From IMG/VR virus record IMGVR_UViG_3300042544_001590, positions 143,490 to 207,489 of that record: a stretch of DNA of 64,000 nt; one strand, 5' to 3'. The position numbers and the translations under genes are program-made. The notes below the pieces were generated by a model. The model had not been told where the DNA came from. It was given only the letters and a program-made list of their open reading frames with translations, and did not search any database. Source of the stretch: a virus. Below are positions 22,419 through 52,854 of the stretch, piece by piece. The first letter of the stretch is position 1; every line of letters starts with the position of its first letter.

Positions 22419-22626
22419 AAAGGGGTTGGTCAAAATGACCATGGAGGAATTTGCAAAATGGGCTTGCTTGGTGGAAGCATTCCATTTCATTCAACAGAGG
22501 GCGGAAGAGCTTGAAGTGAATCCAATCAACATGATCAAACCAGCAGCAATCGAAAAGTATATTGAGGAAAGATTTGAGGCAATGCTTTGGGACACTCGGA
22601 TTGAACATCAATTAGGAAATATTTGA
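22396..22626 (+). CDS. Small hypothetical protein
   Basis: 76 residues from ATG 22396, or 63 from ATG 22435 (MTMEEFAKWACLVEAFHFIQ), which begins at the first recognisably globular residues. Helical, ending RFEAMLWDTRIEHQLGN. It converges with the late glycosyltransferase gene, overlapping it by 15 nt. Function unknown. Confidence 0.5.
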   Translation: MITIKTNKKGLVKMTMEEFAKWACLVEAFHFIQQRAEELEVNPINMIKPAAIEKYIEERFEAMLWDTRIEHQLGNI

Positions 22627-23451
22627 TAACATAACAGCTTCCACTTCAATCTTGTTCATATCATCCACGGATACAACACTTTTGAACTGTTCCTTGAGAA
22701 CTTTGGTATCCTGTCCCAATTCGTGGTGTCCAATCATGTAATTGCGGAAGCGATCCTTTAGGTCGTTCTTGTATGGAATGCCAGCGGGACGTTCAAAGCG
22801 GTGTAGCCAGCGCAGGAAGGGCAAGCAGAGCGTCTTCTTACCGTGTTGGCGATACTTCTCATGGATATACTTCTCCTCGCCTCCAAAGCCCCGAAACGCC
22901 TTGTTAAAGCCCAACCATGAGTCTGTTCTACAAGAGAACAATCCCATGCCTTGGGCTGGTATTTCAAATGGGGGAGCATCAACATCCTTTCCTCTTTCAT
23001 CTGTTTGCCAAGTTCCCCACATGTGGGAACTCCAAGTGTCGTCAAAGTGGGTGGAATAATGATGGAAATCGTCATATAGTAATGGACCTTGTAAAAGATT
23101 TCCAGCATCTCCCCCACAATCATACAAATGAATCAGCTTTTTCAAAGCACCGGGGACGATCATCACATGACTGTCCATGCAAAGGGTGTATGGGGTATCG
23201 GACAGGGAAAAAACCTTATTTTTAACGGTTGATGCGTTGTATTTGGTGAATGGTAGATACTGATAGGGTTCCTTGATCCAATTTGTCAGATTTCTATTTG
23301 ATTGTCCATGGGGGGAATCTGGATTATTATCAATGATAATAAATTCAATATTATTTAGGACTTCTCGATGATATGTTCTAATGGCTTGAATGCTGAAATA
23401 TAATCCGTCGTAATCATTGTAGGTGGGAATACCAATCGTGAGTTTTCGCAT
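22612..23451 (-). CDS. Family 2 glycosyltransferase
   Basis: 279 residues. KLTIGIPTYNDYDGLYFSI (about 3-21) and FIIIDNNPDSPHG (about 37-49) are the nucleotide-sugar-binding strands of a GT-A fold. TLCMDSHVMIVPGAL (about 88-102) carries a D-S-H in place of DXD. HMWGTWQTDERGKD and RGFGGEEKYIHEKYRQHGKK follow, the latter like the acceptor-side catalytic region of GT2 enzymes. It is the last gene of the minus-strand tail block, directly downstream of the Thr-rich protein, so it probably acts late. I infer modification of a virion protein or of the host surface. Confidence 0.8.
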   Translation of the reverse strand: MRKLTIGIPTYNDYDGLYFSIQAIRTYHREVLNNIEFIIIDNNPDSPHGQSNRNLTNWIKEPYQYLPFTKYNASTVKNKVFSLSDTPYTLCMDSHVMIVPGALKKLIHLYDCGGDAGNLLQGPLLYDDFHHYSTHFDDTWSSHMWGTWQTDERGKDVDAPPFEIPAQGMGLFSCRTDSWLGFNKAFRGFGGEEKYIHEKYRQHGKKTLCLPFLRWLHRFERPAGIPYKNDLKDRFRNYMIGHHELGQDTKVLKEQFKSVVSVDDMNKIEVEAVMLSNIS

Positions 23452-24440: not shown

Positions 24441-25499
24441 TTAGTATGTGAAGATTGGGATTGCGAATCTATTTACCGTTTTTCCGGTTTCGGATGTATT
24501 CCCCGCAAATGTGATGAATCCAGCGGAAGATAAGGTGATTGATATGGAAGAAAGACCATTGGAAGACAGTGCTGTGAAACTTGTCAATTGTATTCCGGGA
24601 ACCACACCATCCGTGAGTTGTGATGGACTACCATTGAATAGTGTGGATAGGGAATTATTGGTGGAATTTCCAGTCAGAGTATCATAAATTGTCAGCGCGT
24701 CCTTGGAAATGGCTTCCCAATTTGATAATGCCGTGGATGGCAATGATTGTAATTGGTAGATTACTTTATCAACCGATGCAGTGTTCCCTACTTTGGCGGG
24801 AAGTCCACTGAGGGCATTATAGGCAGACACGGGGAGGTGTGATTGGGTGTTTAGACCATAAGCTGAAATTCTGGCGTAATTTGCCGAAAGTATTCCAGAC
24901 TGGAATGTGAAATCGGTGGGGGAAACGGTCAGAGATATCGGTCTTCCATTACCACCACTCAATCCATTGCTAAATGAAGACGATAAAAGTTCTCTTGTAG
25001 TGATTCCACCAGTCTTGATTGAAAGTTGGTTGGATGATATTTCAAAAAAGTTTGTTCTATAATTTAGTTGGATTTTTCCATCAATGATATTGACACCATT
25101 TGTAACGGTGTTTGGGTTAATTTTGGAAGCGGATAATCCACTAACAGCCATATTAACGGTGGAAGACGAATCATATATAAATTCGGAAGAGAATTTGGTT
25201 CTCATGTCCCCCCAATTTGTTATGACACTATAAGGGGATGCTGTAAGCTGATACCAGATGGAATTAACGGAAACTAAGTCTCCAACTTCAGCCAAAGTGG
25301 TGCTAAGGCTATAATAATTATTCAGAGGGGGGTGAATTTTGCTGGAAACTGGATTACCCCCACTCAACACTCCATTACCAACGAATAGACGTTTGGAATC
25401 TGTTGCGTGAACAAGTTCTCCTTGGTCGAAACGGGTTGAATTGATCTCAGCGTTTGTTCCTCTACGAACTTTGATTTTTGAAATGTAAATGTCTGCCAT
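24441..25499 (-). CDS. Tail-fibre-like protein
   Basis: 352 residues. KIKVRRGTNAEINSTRFDQG and LVHATDSKRLFVGNG at the N-terminus form the same domain as in the downstream gene. The remainder is Ser/Thr/Asn-rich and beta-rich with recurrent 'GLSxxxI' segments (AVSGLSASKI, SNGLSSISI), as in fibrous receptor-binding proteins, and two copies of a 'VGDLV...WYQLTA..VITNW' unit. It is probably part of the adsorption apparatus. The start is supported by a TAAAATA box 5 nt upstream. Confidence 0.65.
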   Translation of the reverse strand: MADIYISKIKVRRGTNAEINSTRFDQGELVHATDSKRLFVGNGVLSGGNPVSSKIHPPLNNYYSLSTTLAEVGDLVSVNSIWYQLTASPYSVITNWGDMRTKFSSEFIYDSSSTVNMAVSGLSASKINPNTVTNGVNIIDGKIQLNYRTNFFEISSNQLSIKTGGITTRELLSSSFSNGLSGGNGRPISLTVSPTDFTFQSGILSANYARISAYGLNTQSHLPVSAYNALSGLPAKVGNTASVDKVIYQLQSLPSTALSNWEAISKDALTIYDTLTGNSTNNSLSTLFNGSPSQLTDGVVPGIQLTSFTALSSNGLSSISITLSSAGFITFAGNTSETGKTVNRFAIPIFTY

Positions 25500-42286: not shown

Positions 42287-43197
42287 AACAATTCCTCAAG
42301 CTGTAACAAGCAAGCAATACCACAAATCTCCCTGTCCGTAACGGATATCATCTTAAACAGGTTCTCCGCAATGATAAGGATAGCCTGTTTTTTTGTGGTA
42401 TCATCCAAGGATAAATCATAAAAATAGTTCAACAGGTCTTTCAGAAGGGATTCGTGATCGGAATCGAACAATTCCTCGTTCTCAATCAGAAATTTGCGTG
42501 TTTTCAGGGTATCTCCCGATTTGAGATTGGTGTAAATCAAATCCATCACCTGATTGGTGTCTTTTTTCGTCTCAATGGAGAGAATCCCTGATTTTGAATA
42601 TTTTTCCAATTCATTGATACATTTCCTGATATCGGGATAATGGCTTTTGATCAGGGCAACCAATGGTTTCTTCTGATCATCAGGAATCTCAATTTCCTCT
42701 TTTTTCAGAATCTCCAGACACCTACGAGTAACATCTTTCAGGGATGTGTGGAGTGTGAGACTCTGGCAACGCGATTGGAGGGCGGGAATGATGCGATGCT
42801 TGTAATTGCCCGTGAGAATGAAACGTGTGGTGGATGAATAGGATTCCATGACATTCCTCAAAATTGCCATGGAACTTTTTGATAGATAATCAGCCTCATC
42901 CAAAATGACAATTTTCAATCCCCCGTCAAAGCTCTTCGTTTGGGAGAATCCGATAACTTTATCCCTGATCGTATCCACCCCATTCTCATCGGAAGCGTTA
43001 ATGTAAAGATAATCACAATTTAGGATATCCTTTGCCAATATTTTGGCCAATGTTGTTTTACCAACACCACAAACCCCCGTCAATAATAGATTTGGAACAT
43101 CTTTACCAAAATCTTCGATGATTTTTCTGGTGGTGTCATCCACCATTAAATCGTCTAGCGTCTGTGGTCTGTAACGTTCTGTCCAAGGATTGCTCAT
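42283..43197 (-). CDS. 44: Clamp-loader ATPase (gp44-like)
   Basis: 304 residues, near T4 gp44 (319). An AAA+ ATPase that opens the sliding clamp and places it on primed DNA. Walker A GVCGVGKT (41-48), Walker B IVILDEAD (96-103), sensor 1 FILTGNYKHRI (126-136), arginine-finger motif QSRCQSL (141-147). Its partner clamp is encoded at 12898. No recognisable gp62 subunit lies in this window. Unusually it is in a minus-strand operon with nucleotide-sugar genes and not with the other replication genes. Confidence 0.92.
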   Translation of the reverse strand: MSNPWTERYRPQTLDDLMVDDTTRKIIEDFGKDVPNLLLTGVCGVGKTTLAKILAKDILNCDYLYINASDENGVDTIRDKVIGFSQTKSFDGGLKIVILDEADYLSKSSMAILRNVMESYSSTTRFILTGNYKHRIIPALQSRCQSLTLHTSLKDVTRRCLEILKKEEIEIPDDQKKPLVALIKSHYPDIRKCINELEKYSKSGILSIETKKDTNQVMDLIYTNLKSGDTLKTRKFLIENEELFDSDHESLLKDLLNYFYDLSLDDTTKKQAILIIAENLFKMISVTDREICGIACLLQLEELF

Positions 43198-43946
43198 ATG
43201 CCTACCAAACCAATAGCATGGTTTGAGCGATTGTCAATAGTCCGAACCAAATTTGCACAATCCAATAGACTGTCATATGTGCCAACGTCGAACCAAAATC
43301 CATCCAATTTCTCAACACCAACACCTTCTTTATCATTCATCATGCGAATCAGGTCAACAATTTCCAGTTCTCCTCTAGCAGATGGTTTGACTTTTTTAGC
43401 CATTTCCACAACTTCATTGGAAAACACATAAAGACCAATCACTGCATCTTCGGAAATAAATTCTTTCGGTTTCTCCACAATTTGAATAATATTGCCATCT
43501 TCATCTGTTTCAACCACACCATAGGCGGATGGGTCTTTCACTTTATATGTGTAGATGGTGTTCGGTTGTGGTTGTATTGGGGAATTACCAATAATAACAT
43601 TATCACCAAGAATCAGGCAGATTTCATCTGCATCTTTGACAAATTCTTCCCCAACGATAAAAGCATCGACTAATCCTTTGGGAGAATCTTGGATTGCGTA
43701 TGATAGATTTAATCCGAATTTACTCCCATCTCCAAGTAGAATCTTGAATTGTTTTTGTTGATCCTCGTCGGCATTAATGATGAGGATATCAACATATCCC
43801 ATATCTTTCAGCGTTTGAAGTGGAAATGCGATGCAGGGCTTGTTGAAAATTGGTAAAAGTTGCTTTGATATAACCTTGGTAATCGGGTATAATCTCGTAG
43901 CTTTTCCGCCCGCCAAAATTAGACCACGTTTAATCGTTTCTTGCAT
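43194..43946 (-). CDS. Sugar-1-phosphate nucleotidylyltransferase (RmlA-like)
   Basis: 250 residues. RGLILAGGKATRLYPITKVI (about 7-26) is the signature nucleotide-binding loop of sugar nucleotidyltransferases. ISKQLLPIFNKP, LILGDNVIIG, AYGVVETDEDGNII and EIVDLIRMMND follow in RmlA order. It would make dTDP-glucose from dTTP and glucose-1-phosphate. A strong GAGGAG Shine-Dalgarno precedes the ATG. It overlaps gp44 by 4 nt and the reductase gene upstream by 17 nt. At 250 residues it is slightly shorter than bacterial RmlA (about 290). Confidence 0.88.
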   Translation of the reverse strand: MQETIKRGLILAGGKATRLYPITKVISKQLLPIFNKPCIAFPLQTLKDMGYVDILIINADEDQQKQFKILLGDGSKFGLNLSYAIQDSPKGLVDAFIVGEEFVKDADEICLILGDNVIIGNSPIQPQPNTIYTYKVKDPSAYGVVETDEDGNIIQIVEKPKEFISEDAVIGLYVFSNEVVEMAKKVKPSARGELEIVDLIRMMNDKEGVGVEKLDGFWFDVGTYDSLLDCANLVRTIDNRSNHAIGLVGI

Positions 43947-44847
43947 ATTTCTCCTCTATTTCGTTTTTAATTCTCTTATCTTCCGCTTGTTTCTCAAGCA
44001 TTTTCTCAAAACATTCCTTCATCACATCCTTCTCAAATCGCATCTCATAGATTTCCTTTGATTTGGAGCCATCCAGAACACAATTGCTTCTTCCAGTGGC
44101 AATGGGAAGATCGGCAAGATATACGAATTTCCAATTATCGTTGTGGAATCCGTATTCTTTCATGACATCACACACTTCCTGTGTGGTTAATGCCTGTGGA
44201 TTGATGACATTGTAGATGTTCTGTCCTTTCCATTTACCGACTTTTTTAATCAAAAGATTCTTCACAAATTCGCAGAAATCGGGGATATATGTCTTGGAGT
44301 TCTTGAAATTGATCAAATCGTCGTATTGTCTAATTTTGTTCAAATAATTCCTATTAGATGATTCGTAATGGAATGGCATACGAACCCTCAGAATGATATT
44401 ATCCATATTTTTTGATAAATTTTCAAAAGCGTGTTTTGATTTGGAATAAAATGAAGCCCTATTACAGAATAATCCATAATTTGGGGAATCTTCCTCGTTC
44501 CACACTTTCTCATATCCATCATAAACACAACCAGAAGAAACATGGAGATAATTCACTTCATGTAATTGACATACAGCATTTACTTTTAAAGGAGAAACTG
44601 TATTGAGTTCCCAACACAATTCTTTTTTCATCTCCGCTTCATCAATGTTGGGTCTTCCCGTGAATCCCGAACAGTTAATCACGGTATCAATGGTATTATT
44701 GAGAAGAAATTTGTGGAGGATTTCCACTTTATGATAATCAATCTCTTCCGCTGATTTGATAATCACGTTAAAATCGTTTTTCAAATGATTGTAAAGATGA
44801 TTACCAACGTAACCCTTCCCTAAAATTAATAAATTAAGCTTGCTCAT
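43930..44847 (-). CDS. NAD(P)-dependent sugar reductase/epimerase (RmlD-like)
   Basis: 305 residues from ATG 44847. An upstream start at 44961 would overlap the previous gene by over 100 nt and is rejected. Rossmann motif LILGKGYVGNHLYNHL (about 6-21), VINCSGFTGRPNIDEAE, LHVSSGCVYDGYE and the catalytic ASFYSKSKHAFE (YxxxK) match the RmlD/SDR family that reduces dTDP-4-keto sugars. With RmlA it gives the first and last steps of dTDP-rhamnose synthesis. RmlB and RmlC are not in the window and may come from the host. Confidence 0.82.
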   Translation of the reverse strand: MSKLNLLILGKGYVGNHLYNHLKNDFNVIIKSAEEIDYHKVEILHKFLLNNTIDTVINCSGFTGRPNIDEAEMKKELCWELNTVSPLKVNAVCQLHEVNYLHVSSGCVYDGYEKVWNEEDSPNYGLFCNRASFYSKSKHAFENLSKNMDNIILRVRMPFHYESSNRNYLNKIRQYDDLINFKNSKTYIPDFCEFVKNLLIKKVGKWKGQNIYNVINPQALTTQEVCDVMKEYGFHNDNWKFVYLADLPIATGRSNCVLDGSKSKEIYEMRFEKDVMKECFEKMLEKQAEDKRIKNEIEEKYARND

Positions 44848-45113: not shown

Positions 45114-45120
45114 TTAAATA
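45114..45120 (+). promoter_or_regulatory. Late promoter box
   Basis: TTAAATA, then GTATT, then the ATG at 45126. It excludes the in-frame TTG at 45111 as start. Confidence 0.7.
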
Positions 45121-45125
45121 GTATT

Positions 45126-46229
45126 ATGCCAAAGATTTCCCAATTAACATCTGCAACATTACCTATTGTTGGTAATGAGGTGGCTATCATCAATCAAAAT
45201 GGAACCACTTATTCAAGTGCTTTAAGTAATTTTATTGGGGGTGGATCGAACGTGTCATCCTTATCTTCAAATTGGCAGAACACTTACACCACATTTTCCT
45301 CAAATTCTGCCAATTATGCAAAGGTTAATGTCAATAATAATTTTTCATCTACCCAAACGTTCACCACAGGTTCAATAAATGTCGGAGGATTTCCTTTATC
45401 TGCGACAGTGAGTAATAGTTTGTTTGGTGGTAATCTCGCAGGTTTCGGTGCTACGTGTGCATGTTTCTCCAATTTCTTTGGTTATAACGCAGGTAACGGT
45501 GCCACATGCGCATCCAATTCCAATTTCTTTGGTCAAGGCGCGGGTTACAATACCACAAACGCATATAGCTCCAATTTCTTTGGTTCAAACGCAGGTTTCG
45601 GTGCCACAAACGCATCCAATTCCAATTTCTTTGGTTCAAACACAGGTTTCGGTGCCACAAGCGCATGTAATTCCAATTTCCTTGGTTCAAACGCAGGTTA
45701 CGGTGCCACAAACGCATCCAATTCCAATTTCCTTGGTAGATACTCAGGTAACGGTGCCACAAACGCATCCAATTCCAATTTCCTTGGTTCAAACGCAGGT
45801 TTCGATGCCACAAACGCATCCAACTCCAATTTCCTTGGTAGATACGCAGGTAACGGTGCCACAAACGCATCCAACTCCAATTTCCTTGGTAGATACGCAG
45901 GTTACTATGCCACATACGCATCATTCTCCAATTTCCTTGGTCAAGGCGCAGGTAACGGTGCCACAAACGCATGTCACTCCATATTCATTGGTTCAAACGC
46001 AGGTAACGGTGCCACAAACGCATGTCACTCCATATTCATTGGTTATAACGCAGGTTTCGGTGCCTCTCTGTCAGCTTCAATCGCCCTTGGCTCTTGTGCT
46101 ATCCCCACATCACACAATCAATTAGTGTTGGGGTCGTCAGCATACCCACTATCAACTGTTAATAGCGGCAACTGTTTAGTTGTAAACATAAATGGAACTA
46201 TGAAGAAAATAGCGTTGCTTTCCGTTTAA
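45126..46229 (+). CDS. Repeat-rich fibre-like late protein
   Basis: 367 residues. The N-terminal 100 (QLTSATLPIVGNEVAIINQN) resemble fibre attachment regions. Residues about 102-305 are twelve tandem 17-residue units of the type GSNAGFGATNASNSNFL, most of which begin Gly and end Asn-Phe-Leu/Phe, as expected of a beta-solenoid with one turn per unit. The C-terminal LVLGSSAYPLSTVNSGN and KIALLSV form a small terminal domain. Probably a fibre or capsid-decoration protein. It is followed by late glycosyltransferase and sulfotransferase genes. Confidence 0.65.
   Translation: MPKISQLTSATLPIVGNEVAIINQNGTTYSSALSNFIGGGSNVSSLSSNWQNTYTTFSSNSANYAKVNVNNNFSSTQTFTTGSINVGGFPLSATVSNSLFGGNLAGFGATCACFSNFFGYNAGNGATCASNSNFFGQGAGYNTTNAYSSNFFGSNAGFGATNASNSNFFGSNTGFGATSACNSNFLGSNAGYGATNASNSNFLGRYSGNGATNASNSNFLGSNAGFDATNASNSNFLGRYAGNGATNASNSNFLGRYAGYYATYASFSNFLGQGAGNGATNACHSIFIGSNAGNGATNACHSIFIGYNAGFGASLSASIALGSCAIPTSHNQLVLGSSAYPLSTVNSGNCLVVNINGTMKKIALLSV
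45429..46040 (+). repeat. Twelve 51-bp tandem repeats
   Basis: Units of 17 codons starting GGT, with a more degenerate thirteenth after 46040. Neighbouring units differ mainly at the second to sixth codons (Ser-Asn-Ala, Arg-Tyr-Ala, Gln-Gly-Ala). Long identical stretches such as GCCACAAACGCATCCAA are shared, so the array probably expands and contracts by recombination. Confidence 0.9.
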
Positions 46230-46234
46230 TGCTA

Positions 46235-46242
46235 TATAAATA
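46235..46242 (+). promoter_or_regulatory. Late promoter box, exact T4 consensus
   Basis: TATAAATA, then GCAAT, then the ATG at 46248. It is the only full TATAAATA among the boxes and lies within a short palindrome GCTATATAAATAGC. Confidence 0.75.
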
Positions 46243-46247
46243 GCAAT

Positions 46248-47120
46248 ATGATAAAAAATGCTATTTTTCATATTGAGGGGGGGTTGGGTAAAAACATTGT
46301 AGCCACTTCGGTTATCCGTTCCTATAAAAAGGAACATCCAATCCACAACATTATAGTAAATTCTGCATATCCTGACATTTTTCAAGGAAATCCTGATATT
46401 GATAGGTGTTATCTATTGGGAAATACTCCGTATTTTTATGAGGACTTTATCTTTGATAAAGATTGTGAAATATTTGCACATGATCCATATAAAACAACGG
46501 CACATATCACCAAACAACAAATATTGGTGAAATCGTGGTGTGATATGATAGGGGTTACTTATGATGGTTTAAATCCGAATATCCATTTTAATTTTAGGGA
46601 AATGGAAATATCCAGAGCGTTACTACCTCAAACTGATAAACCCATTCTCATCTTTCAACCATTTGGAGGCGCACAAAACCAAGAATTTCCATACTCATGG
46701 ACAAGGGATATTCATCCTTTCATTGCCCAAGAAATAATCAATAATCTTAAAGAACAATATACAATATTGCATATTTGTCACCCCCACCATCCTCAATTAC
46801 AAAATGTGATTCGCTATGATAAAAATCAAAATAAAAAGATTTTATGTGCCATGTTGAATCTTTCTAAAAAAAGAATTCTAATCGACTCTTCCTTACAACA
46901 TGCTGCGGCTGCCATGGGATTACCATCAACAGTGGTGTGGGTTGGGACACAACCGGAAGTATTTGGTTATGATATGCATAATAATATAACTCCCCATGTT
47001 ACCTTTCCAAAGGGTAATATTAATTCGTATTTATATGATTATAGTTTCAATGGAATCATCCACGAATGCCCATATGATAACATTTATCAAATTTTCAATA
47101 TCGAAAACATCATAAAATGA
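46248..47120 (+). CDS. Family 9 (heptosyltransferase-like) glycosyltransferase
   Basis: 290 residues. HIEGGLGKNIVATSVIRSYK (about 8-27) is the glycine-rich start of the GT-B fold seen in ADP-heptose:LPS heptosyltransferases. ILIFQPFGGAQNQEF and ILIDSSLQHAAAAMGLPSTV, then VWVGTQPEVFGY, match the C-terminal donor-binding part ('D.s..HlAaAlg.P...lfG'). Late expression and coupling to a sulfotransferase suggest that it decorates new virions or a late surface. The acceptor is unknown. Confidence 0.78.
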   Translation: MIKNAIFHIEGGLGKNIVATSVIRSYKKEHPIHNIIVNSAYPDIFQGNPDIDRCYLLGNTPYFYEDFIFDKDCEIFAHDPYKTTAHITKQQILVKSWCDMIGVTYDGLNPNIHFNFREMEISRALLPQTDKPILIFQPFGGAQNQEFPYSWTRDIHPFIAQEIINNLKEQYTILHICHPHHPQLQNVIRYDKNQNKKILCAMLNLSKKRILIDSSLQHAAAAMGLPSTVVWVGTQPEVFGYDMHNNITPHVTFPKGNINSYLYDYSFNGIIHECPYDNIYQIFNIENIIK

Positions 47121-47908
47121 GAGATATATTTTATGTGTCCGGCTTACCCAGATCGGGAAGCACTCTTCTGATGAATCTGATGGCACAAAATCCTAAAGTA
47201 TTCTGTACTCCTACATCGGGTTTGAATCAATTGATGAATAATATCAAAACATCGTGGGGTAATATCATTGAACATCGATCTGATAAAAACGCTGGTAATG
47301 ATGAAAATTTGAAGCGTATCCTAAACACTATATTACATTCCTACCATAATACCGAAAAACCGTATGTCATCGACAAATGTAGGGGGTGGGGATTCTCCAT
47401 TGAAATGTTGGAGGCAATCACCAATAAAAAAACCAAGATCATAGCACCAGTTAGAGATATAAAGGATGTTCTTGCGTCTTTCGAATTATTATATCGAAAG
47501 GGTTCCTACAAGTTCAACCCCCAAGGACCAATGCCCCAATGTTTAACAACTGAAGGTAGGATGATGCATTGGGCAAGTTTGGATGGGGAAGTCGGTGCTG
47601 CTTACGCAATATTAAAGGATGCTTTTTTAAGAGGATTGGGGGATAGATTCCTTTTGGTGGATTATGATTATCTGACACATAATCCTAAAATTGTCATGGA
47701 CGTAATTTGGGATTTCCTCAATATACCCAAATGTGAACATGATTTTGAAAACATATTGAACCAAACACCAGAAGATGATGGTGTTTATAATTATGTCGAT
47801 TTACATAAAATTAAGAGTAAAGTCGCACCATCCAGTTCAAAAGCTAAAGAAATTTTGGGGGATGAAATATGTAAAGGATTGGATGGTTATGAATTTTGGA
47901 AGAAATGA
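47117..47908 (+). CDS. Sulfotransferase-like protein
   Basis: 263 residues. FYVSGLPRSGSTLLMNLMAQ (about 5-24) is the PAPS 5'-phosphosulfate loop. IIAPVRDIKDVLASFELLYR (about 109-128) matches the 3'-phosphate-binding motif 'vRdp.d...S'. RFLLVDYDYLTHNP fits the 'v.YEdL..dp' element. The enzyme would move sulfate from PAPS to a sugar or tyrosine. Phage-encoded sulfotransferases are uncommon. It overlaps the GT9 gene by 4 nt and shares its late promoter, so both probably act on the same product. Confidence 0.82.
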   Translation: MRDIFYVSGLPRSGSTLLMNLMAQNPKVFCTPTSGLNQLMNNIKTSWGNIIEHRSDKNAGNDENLKRILNTILHSYHNTEKPYVIDKCRGWGFSIEMLEAITNKKTKIIAPVRDIKDVLASFELLYRKGSYKFNPQGPMPQCLTTEGRMMHWASLDGEVGAAYAILKDAFLRGLGDRFLLVDYDYLTHNPKIVMDVIWDFLNIPKCEHDFENILNQTPEDDGVYNYVDLHKIKSKVAPSSSKAKEILGDEICKGLDGYEFWKK

Positions 47909-47915
47909 CTAAATA
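47909..47915 (+). promoter_or_regulatory. Late promoter box
   Basis: CTAAATA begins one base after the sulfotransferase stop, then ATGAT, then the ATG at 47921. Confidence 0.72.
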
Positions 47916-47920
47916 ATGAT

Positions 47921-48289
47921 ATGTCCATATTAGGTAATAACACACTACCAACACCACCCCCGACGCCCAATAAGGAAGTCCTATTGAAACAAGCGGTATC
48001 CCGTATCAAAAATCTTTCCAAGGAATGTTTCGGTAATTTGGTGAGAACCCAACGAGAAGGTATTAAGATTGTTTGGGAGAACGAAAACCTCACCCCGCAG
48101 GAAATAATTGATGAGATGGGGTCGGATGTTTTTAAGATTTTTCAATTCCATGGGGAGCTTACACAATTTATTCTGATGTTGGCCCAAGAGGATGGAGCAA
48201 CGGTTGATGTTAAGTATCCCACCCACTCATTCACCGCAAACCTTAGTGCTGGAACTATCACCGTCCACGATACACCTTACCAACAATAA
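47921..48289 (+). CDS. Small late protein, probably virion-associated
   Basis: 122 residues. A Pro-rich start (LPTPPPTPNKEVLLKQAVSR) precedes a helical domain (RIKNLSKECFGNLVRTQREG, EIIDEMGSDVFKIFQFHGEL) and a beta-rich end. Comparable proteins occur in T4-like phages without assigned function. It leads the cluster with the acidic core-like protein, neck protein and terminase. Confidence 0.65.
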   Translation: MSILGNNTLPTPPPTPNKEVLLKQAVSRIKNLSKECFGNLVRTQREGIKIVWENENLTPQEIIDEMGSDVFKIFQFHGELTQFILMLAQEDGATVDVKYPTHSFTANLSAGTITVHDTPYQQ

Positions 48290-51084: not shown

Positions 51085-52854
51085 ATGGCAGCTAAAAAGA
51101 AACATGAATACATGGGGAATCCGAATCTCCCCACTGCCAATGCGGTGTTTGAATATACACCGGAAATGGTGGTGGAAATTCAAAAATGTAAAGAGTCTCT
51201 AATACATTTTGCTGAAAATTATTTTTATATTATCGATCCCGATGAAGGTAAAAAGGTTATTCCACTCTTTGATTACCAAACGAGATTATTGAAGGCGTTT
51301 GAAGATTTCAAACAAAATATAGTTTTGAGTTCTCGCCAGAGCGGAAAAACGACGGTGATGACTATATTAGCATTACACGTAGCATGTTTTGAAAATCATA
51401 AAAATATTGTTATTGTTGCGAATAAAGAGGAAACAGCTAAAAACATATTCAAACGTGTTAAGTTGGCTTATGAAGAATTGCCTAACTGGTTAAAACCCGG
51501 AATTAAAAAGTGGGGAGATACTTCAATGGAATTGGCGAATGGTAGTTGTATTGAAATTTCAACCACTACTGGAAACGCAGCGAGGGGTAAATTTGTCAAT
51601 TTGTTGCTATTGGACGAATTAGCATTTATCGATCCGCCAAGCATAGTTGAAGACTTCTGGAGATCGGTGTATCCAACAATTTCCCGCGCTAAAACATCTA
51701 AAATTCTTATTACATCAACACCAAACGGAGTTGGTAATTTGTTTCATAGATTATATACTGGATCGGTAAAAGGTGAAAACAGATTCCACTATGAAAGAAT
51801 TGATTGGTGGGAAGTTCCGGGTCGTGATGAAGAATGGAAAAAAGATCAAATTAAAGATTTAGGTTCCCACGAGGCGTTCATGCAGGAATATGGGAACGAA
51901 TTCCTAGACAATAGCCAACAATCCATTGATGAAGCCCTATTTGACCGTCTCAAAAACGAATGCCGTGAACCCAAACACATCCTCAAGGAAGGTGCCTATA
52001 AAATATGGGAAGAATATGATCCCGAAAAAATATATGTTATTGGGGGGGACGTTTCCGAAGGTCTTGGTCTGGATGCATCCGTTCTCCAAGTTCTGGATGT
52101 CACCAATCCCAAGGAAATTATACAAGTTGCCGAATACTGGACAAATACCAAAGGGCCATCGGAATTCACCAACGAAGTGGTGGATGTTTGTGGACATTGG
52201 GGAAATCCTCTGCTATTGATTGAGCGAAACAACCAAGGAACGGGTGTTTGTGACACTTTGGCGAACACCCACATGTATCAGAACCTTGTGTCTTGGGGAG
52301 CTAAGGAAGCGCATAAGAATAAGCAGAACGGTATGATTTCCCATATCAACACCAAATATAAAGCGGTGGAGAACCAAAGATATTTCGTCAATGAAGCGCA
52401 ATCTGTGGTATTCCGCAACATTGACACGCTGAAAGAATTTAAGAATTTTGTGCGCTACCCCAATGGCTCTTGGAAAGCCAAAAGTGGGGAACACGATGAC
52501 CGTGTGATGGCATTCGTATGGGCATTGATGGCTCTCTACAAGGATATCACGGAATTATATTTTGAAATTGAGGAATTGGATGATTGCGATAAGCCTCTTG
52601 TGATCAAACCCATTGATCAGGGACTCCACCAATACAGATCGGCAACTTCCATCTACACCAACGAAGAAGTGCCTAAAATTGAGAATTCCAACATTGCCCC
52701 CATGCTCTTTGGAGGATACGGGGGGGCTGCTGTTAGTGACATGGCGGAATTGGAAGCTGCGGGATGGGCATTGCCTGATCATTCGGTGTTCTCCAATCCT
52801 GAAAGGAATATCAATCCTGATCAGTGGGCAGCGATGGAGAAATATTTCGGTTGA
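51085..52854 (+). CDS. 17: Terminase large subunit (gp17-like)
   Basis: 589 residues, as in T4 gp17 (610). The packaging motor's ATPase and headful nuclease. Walker A SSRQSGKTT (82-90), Walker B LLLLDE (173-178) with catalytic Glu, motif III ILITSTPNGVGN (about 208-219). The RNase H-like nuclease has GGDVSEGLGLDASVLQV (about 320) and GEHDDRVMAFVWAL (about 470), which supply the acidic metal ligands. A small-subunit gene was not recognised. Confidence 0.94.
   Translation: MAAKKKHEYMGNPNLPTANAVFEYTPEMVVEIQKCKESLIHFAENYFYIIDPDEGKKVIPLFDYQTRLLKAFEDFKQNIVLSSRQSGKTTVMTILALHVACFENHKNIVIVANKEETAKNIFKRVKLAYEELPNWLKPGIKKWGDTSMELANGSCIEISTTTGNAARGKFVNLLLLDELAFIDPPSIVEDFWRSVYPTISRAKTSKILITSTPNGVGNLFHRLYTGSVKGENRFHYERIDWWEVPGRDEEWKKDQIKDLGSHEAFMQEYGNEFLDNSQQSIDEALFDRLKNECREPKHILKEGAYKIWEEYDPEKIYVIGGDVSEGLGLDASVLQVLDVTNPKEIIQVAEYWTNTKGPSEFTNEVVDVCGHWGNPLLLIERNNQGTGVCDTLANTHMYQNLVSWGAKEAHKNKQNGMISHINTKYKAVENQRYFVNEAQSVVFRNIDTLKEFKNFVRYPNGSWKAKSGEHDDRVMAFVWALMALYKDITELYFEIEELDDCDKPLVIKPIDQGLHQYRSATSIYTNEEVPKIENSNIAPMLFGGYGGAAVSDMAELEAAGWALPDHSVFSNPERNINPDQWAAMEKYFG

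Follow-up and report, generated by a model that had tools for sequence, protein, structure and literature searches.

TibC and AAH (BAHT) heptosylate serine residues of the repeat beta-solenoid adhesins TibA and AIDA-I (PMC4358343). In phages, glycosylation of the virion by phage-encoded glycosyltransferases has been proposed, for example for mycobacteriophages such as Maravista (PMC11256854). Sulfotransferases are encoded by cyanophages and OM43 phages, and their function is reported as unclear (PMC10580990). The literature searched contained no account of a phage virion that is sulfated. We know of no virus of bacteria for which decoration of its own fibre with a sulfated sugar has been demonstrated. 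The locus described here places a glycosyltransferase gene and a sulfotransferase gene directly behind a fibre-like gene. Dozens of phage lineages show the same neighbourhood, which makes it most likely that the two enzymes attach a sulfated sugar to the fibre of the phage itself.

The window, that is the whole stretch of DNA analysed (64,000 nucleotides), comprises bases 143,490 to 207,489 of a 207,489-base virus record (IMG/VR IMGVR_UViG_3300042544_001590). Judging from its genes, the source is a large T4-related phage: the terminase shares ~35% identity with the terminases of T4-like phages, and the genome contains many homologues of T4 core genes, among them one of the late sigma factor gp55 (39.6% identity). 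No nucleotide relatives were found among isolated phages. An insertion of 1–1.7 kb divides the large terminase gene of L004, L007, L013, and L030 after residue 90 or so and is missing from the window copy (51085–52854), which suggests an intron or an intein in these close relatives. A second fibre and glycosyltransferase neighbourhood lies among tail-type genes of the window (22612–23451 and 24441–25499, minus strand). In it, an enzyme of the GT2 family (PF00535, E = 2.5e-8) is close to a protein whose N-terminal domain is of the major-tropism-determinant type (PF18454, E = 5e-8).

Three genes of the plus strand make up the locus: a gene for a fibre-like structural protein (45126–46229, 367 aa), a gene for a GT-B glycosyltransferase with the GT9/heptosyltransferase fold (GT; 46248–47120, 290 aa), and a gene for a putative PAPS-dependent sulfotransferase of the Sulfotransfer_3 type (ST; 47117–47908, 263 aa). 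The last two share 4 nt, the GT stop and the ST start being combined in ATGA, as expected from the overlapping pair described in an earlier note made from the sequence alone. The boundary of the cassette is set by the next late gene (47910–48289, plus strand, 122 aa, ATG at 47921), which carries a TAAATA-N5-ATG of its own. In the relatives with ST alone, ST is likewise followed by a gene of about this size.

The fibre-like protein is built of an N-terminal domain (KISQL...GNEVAIINQNGTT), 13 repeats of 17 residues (SNFLGxxAGxGATNASN), which form the main part of the ORF, and a C-terminal segment (NQLVLGSS...NGTMKKIALL). In the AlphaFold model, one short strand recurs every 17 residues, with a pLDDT of 94–98 over the repeats (residues 131–280). 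The repeat region is therefore a solenoid according to the model, which bears out the beta-solenoid-like repeat gene that the earlier note had placed ahead of the pair. The protein itself matches no Pfam or PHROG profile, and comparison of its model with solved structures gave no match below E 0.08. A homologue in L103 (35% identity) has the N-terminal domain and the repeats in common with it and matches phrog_4636, tail spike (E = 1.6e-35), and phrog_23837, virion structural protein (E = 1.7e-29). The number of repeats varies strongly among relatives. Similar repeats are present in gp257 of Sphingomonas phage PAU, which we discarded as a parallel: none of the eight proteins tested there is a GT or ST of these families.

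Identification of GT comes from its structure. The AlphaFold model (pLDDT 85.6) has GT9 enzymes as its top Foldseek matches: a Veillonella GT9 protein (3tov, E = 2e-12), WaaF (1psw, 6e-10), WaaC (5e-9), and TibC (4rap/4rb4, 5e-7). Alignment by hhalign with a profile of four Escherichia coli GT9 enzymes gave an E value of 1.2e-5 over 223 columns. In a search of the phage's own genome, where 7 of 14 controls were positive, the Pfam GT9 profile (PF01075) did not match GT at E ≤ 10, and family membership by profile therefore failed. The one PHROG family matched, PHROG_8954 (E = 3e-11), is annotated as of unknown function. The motif on the nucleotide side, LIDSSLQHAAAA (D(S/T)xxxHxxAA), is kept. 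The catalytic GD (D13 in WaaC and WaaF), which is invariant in the four E. coli enzymes, corresponds to Gly14-Lys15 in GT, and this lysine is invariant in 24 sequences, as are, among other residues, Asp213 and His218. We consider GT a glycosyltransferase on the strength of its predicted GT-B/GT9-type fold and not of a profile. The label "GT9-like" proposed earlier thus holds for the fold, and not for the Pfam profile or the Asp base. With a lysine at the position of the GT9 catalytic base, the activity of the enzyme is presumed.

Relatives of GT were found in 425 stretches of IMG/VR and, among 84,980 species genomes, in a single contig, from a Flavobacteriaceae MAG. This contig, in which GT is 43% and ST 31% identical to those of the window and the two genes again overlap by 4 nt, appears phage-like, as collagen-like fibre genes flank the pair on both sides. 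In these two collections, the GT family is thus nearly confined to viruses. It may consist of protein glycosyltransferases for solenoid repeats.

ST matches PF13469 (Sulfotransfer_3; E = 5e-13, 50.2 bits for a cut-off of 27), PF00685 (Sulfotransfer_1; E = 1.6e-10, above cut-off), and PHROG_27463, annotated as of unknown function (E = 2e-53). Both PAPS signatures, the 5'-PSB GLPR(S/A)GST and the 3'-PB R113...S121 with its two residues eight apart, are kept in nine homologues down to 30% identity. The assignment as a sulfotransferase, already made in the earlier note from these motifs, is solid at the sequence level, and PAPS-dependent sulfate transfer is predicted. ST is the sole sulfotransferase of the genome. 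The nearest solved structures are the protein-tyrosine sulfotransferases TPST1/2 (profile match, E = 2e-10); CurM-type and cytosolic sulfotransferases also match. The TPST segment GEETRV, whose glutamate we take to be the catalytic base of tyrosine sulfotransferases, reads CTPTSGL in the phage proteins. As the region of this glutamate is not conserved, the acceptor of ST cannot be read from homology. Such enzymes had been called uncommon in phages, which is true of isolates (8 of 50,697 phage records) and not of environmental viruses, with at least 559 IMG/VR stretches related to ST.

The T4 late promoter consensus has been described, and the T4 late box spans positions −13 to −6 relative to the start of transcription (PMC1524935). 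In the present genome, TAAATA starts 11–12 nt before the ATG of 43 of 244 heuristic genes versus 0.6% of all ATGs. With the preceding pyrimidine, [CT]TAAATA at −12/−11 marks 7 of 11 homologues of T4 late genes and none of 12 homologues of early or middle genes (Fisher p = 0.001). The fibre gene has this signal (TAAATA-N5-ATG, 45115–45120, plus strand) in the genome-wide register. It is kept before the homologous fibre of L003, L015, L018, L030, L054, L110, L111, and L115, and likewise precedes the related fibres of L088 and L103. The features of a T4-type late promoter, TATAAATA or CTAAATA roughly one turn of the helix ahead of the start, occurrence at late genes, and a gp55 homologue, are all found for the fibre gene. 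The late timing assumed in the earlier note is supported by these data, on grounds other than the one given there.

The same note had an exact TATAAATA promoter drive GT. This octamer is indeed present before the GT start codon (46235–46242, plus strand) and in the late register, but it is found only in near-identical contigs, is absent from relatives 86–87% identical, and is not conserved beyond the species-level group. Moreover, the five copies of TATAAATA in the window correspond to chance frequency (4.94 expected), and its count was dropped as promoter evidence in favour of the register test. Since the box of GT is lost in close relatives and that of the fibre is conserved, GT and ST would be read from the fibre promoter, and the transcription unit is probably fibre-GT-ST. 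A conserved hairpin before the GT start (TGCTAT-ATAA-ATAGCA) was also considered and rejected (29 loci tested, 5 at p < 0.05, median p 0.57).

Across the genome, the TAAATA box stands at a fixed 11–12 nt before late-gene starts, with no Shine-Dalgarno peak; examples are 45115–45126, 47910–47921, and the window homologues of T4 genes 17, 18, and 6. Given the position of the T4 late box, late transcripts of this phage would begin at or near the AUG. Late mRNAs may thus be leaderless; alternatively, the box could be a translation signal.

The association with fibre genes was quantified among the best 80 loci of each IMG/VR search, with GT clustered at 90% and ST at 60% identity, and with fibre-like defined by composition as an ORF containing at least 45% Gly+Asn+Ser+Thr+Ala. 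Such an ORF lies directly upstream of GT in 30 of the 33 clusters with a visible upstream gene, the exceptions being L115, L121, and L132, against 12.9% of 395 background ORFs (binomial p ~1e-23; the lineages are not fully independent and phylogenetic dependence is not removed from this value). For ST, it is the first or second gene upstream in 24 of 31 clusters, against 21.8% of 271 control genes (p ~1e-9, again for lineages that are not fully independent). The partner genes are of many kinds: UspA1_rep/YadA_head, BppL_N with GDSL, collagen repeats, tail spike, head decoration, virion structural, tail fibre, RCC1, Kelch, and BspA-type LRR. As the upstream proteins differ in kind, GT and ST appear to follow the role of fibre and not one protein family.

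The arrangement is variable too. We observed fibre-GT-ST, fibre-ST, fibre-GT, and, in L086, L088, L091, and L103, fibre and GT with an ST of opposite orientation between them. ST is directly behind the fibre in L110–L113, with a 4-nt gap between the open frames, and the 88-kb record of L111 contains no GT of the present family. Conversely, fibre-GT-ST is kept in L030 and L034 though the flanking genes are replaced. The enzymes are thus kept while the type of fibre, the gene order, and the orientation change. This recurrent linkage across many lineages and fibre types supports a virion target, as the earlier note had suggested, and specifies it as the fibre. Two further loci are worth recording. 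At L146:475–6828, a 2118-aa RCC1-repeat protein in the fibre position is followed by a 360-aa gene and a sulfotransferase. At L189:3637–4826, a distant GT-ST locus near collagen-like fibres, two ORFs just before GT resemble, by eye, 2-oxoglutarate/Fe(II) oxygenases; hydroxylation possibly precedes glycosylation there.

Genes that could be related to the sugar donor adjoin the cassette on the minus strand. They encode an RmlA-like sugar-1-phosphate nucleotidylyltransferase (43194–43946; PF00483, E = 2e-54; TIGR01207 rmlA, E = 6e-77, below its cut-off) and an RmlD-like NAD-dependent sugar-nucleotide reductase (43930–44847, likely start 44847; PF04321, E = 2e-18; TIGR01214, E = 1e-18, below its cut-off). 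They run with the gp44 clamp-loader gene and lack the late signal. An RmlB/Gmd-like gene is located elsewhere in the genome (G000:4426–5439). Neither RmlC nor a GmhA-type isomerase (PF13580) was found in the genome, and the reading of a complete dTDP-rhamnose pathway was dropped for want of RmlC. The RmlA- and RmlD-like products possibly supply the donor sugar; they are not obligate partners, being absent from the locus in L030 and L034, which retain fibre-GT-ST. No PAPS-making enzyme was found in the genome: the search for APS kinase gave a single match, which is a KaiC/RecA-like ATPase. PAPS must therefore come from the host.

We consider it probable that fibre, GT, and ST constitute a dedicated late virion-decoration cassette in which GT glycosylates the fibre and ST sulfates the glycan. 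This proposal builds on the observed gene content, the folds and families of the products, the late-promoter signal ahead of the fibre gene, and the repeated association of both enzymes with fibres. The fibre gene would be transcribed late from its own gp55-type promoter, with read-through into GT and ST and translational coupling of ST to GT. GT would then transfer a sugar from a nucleotide-sugar donor to side chains of the freshly synthesized fibre, most likely those of Ser, Thr, or Asn along its repeated, solvent-exposed ridge. ST would transfer sulfate from host PAPS to the fibre glycan, and the negatively charged fibre would be assembled into the virion. We infer the acceptor (the fibre), the sulfated target (the glycan, not the protein), the sugar, and which reaction comes first; the decoration might serve in host binding or protection. 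The phages with only GT or only ST indicate that the two steps are separable.

A gene neighbourhood is not proof of a substrate, and fibre loci also house genes that alter the host surface. GT and ST could act late on the LPS or capsule of the host, blocking superinfection or the re-adsorption of progeny to debris; their place beside the fibre gene would then reflect a shared connection with the receptor. The classical role of GT9 enzymes is that of LPS heptosyltransferases, and temperate phages keep serotype-converting genes near their tail genes. Furthermore, large cyanophages have clusters annotated as LPS genes (PMC3037559), and a distant relative of GT in S-SSM7 has genes in its vicinity with the annotations carbohydrate kinase, nucleotidyltransferase, and phosphoheptose isomerase. 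We nevertheless regard action on the host surface as unlikely, in view of the late signal of the fibre gene, the many lineages in which the fibre is directly followed by GT and ST, and the lack of any evident membrane flippase or gtrA/gtrB-like companion among the neighbouring ORFs. More doubtful still is a separate action of the two enzymes on the fibre, GT glycosylating it and ST sulfating the protein directly on tyrosine or another side chain. The relationship of ST to the protein-tyrosine sulfotransferases, its closest solved relatives, speaks for it, as does the arrangement of L110–L113. Since loci with fibre-GT and no ST, and with fibre-ST and no detectable GT of this family, both exist, there is also room for sulfation of a glycan made by another enzyme. 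However, CTPTSGL replaces the TPST segment, the fibre repeats contain no conserved acidic-tyrosine site, and the matches of ST extend to the CurM-type and cytosolic enzymes.

Two explanations remain. Viral sulfotransferases have been listed as auxiliary metabolic genes of the sulfur cycle (PMC13079714), and ST might accordingly serve sulfur metabolism or a small-molecule product, with GT engaged in an unrelated one. We give this very little credence, as the search for a PAPS-making enzyme, which covered APS kinase, found none in the genome and ST is consistently linked to fibres across the 31 clusters. That both are passenger or decayed genes devoid of present function could be argued from the absence of all or part of the pair in some lineages and from the replaced catalytic Asp of GT, and seems to us just as improbable: both ORFs are intact in contigs of 66–97% identity, and residues of GT (in the 24 sequences) and of the PAPS site of ST are invariant.

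The recurrent position behind fibre genes gives phage sulfotransferases a concrete, testable job, and the data speak for a role of many of them in fibre modification. A broader generalization, which may prove right but which we advance tentatively, is that the phage sulfotransferases of this family are, as a class, modifiers of virion fibres and not metabolic enzymes, that fibres of sulfated (glyco)protein accordingly occur in many marine phages, and that they are products of a mix-and-match module, the same GT and ST families being recruited by repeat fibres unrelated to one another. A sulfated fibre would, if confirmed, represent a new chemistry of the phage virion. It would bear on how the phage adsorbs in seawater, on its binding to charged polysaccharides of the host, and on its protection against enzymes, as well as on the annotation of viral "auxiliary metabolic genes."

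Among the described systems, the sulfotransferases of cyanophages S-SRM01 and S-SKS1 (32–33% identity) and of OM43 phages are homologous to ST, and that of S-SRM01 is set among glycosyltransferase and nucleotide-sugar epimerase genes. Unlike ST, these enzymes are not linked to fibres in the report describing them (PMC10580990). TPST1/2 have in common with ST the 5'-PSB and 3'-PB signatures and a profile match over the whole domain, but differ in the region of the catalytic Glu. WaaC, WaaF, and WaaQ resemble GT in fold, in the D(S/T)xxxHxxAA motif, and in the overall order of elements. In contrast to them, GT is missed by Pfam GT9, carries Lys15 at the position of Asp13, and has relatives in only one contig, itself phage-like, of the species genomes. 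The mycobacteriophages offer a phage-encoded glycosyltransferase thought to modify a virion protein (PMC11256854), whereas the present GT follows a fibre gene and has a sulfotransferase coupled to it. TibC and AAH share the GT-B/GT9 fold with GT, and a repeat-solenoid gene adjoins GT, whose product would be the counterpart of their adhesin substrate. They differ in size (roughly 400 residues versus 290), in their N-terminal beta-barrel, absent from GT, which starts directly with the first GT-B strand, in the CxxC cysteines of the iron finger, which GT also lacks (features according to PMC4358343), and in the catalytic Asp, replaced by Lys in GT. Their partner is an autotransporter and not a phage fibre, and in the phage GT is followed by ST. 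TibC therefore provides a working analogy for the glycosylation half of the proposed mechanism, and not a family to which GT would belong.
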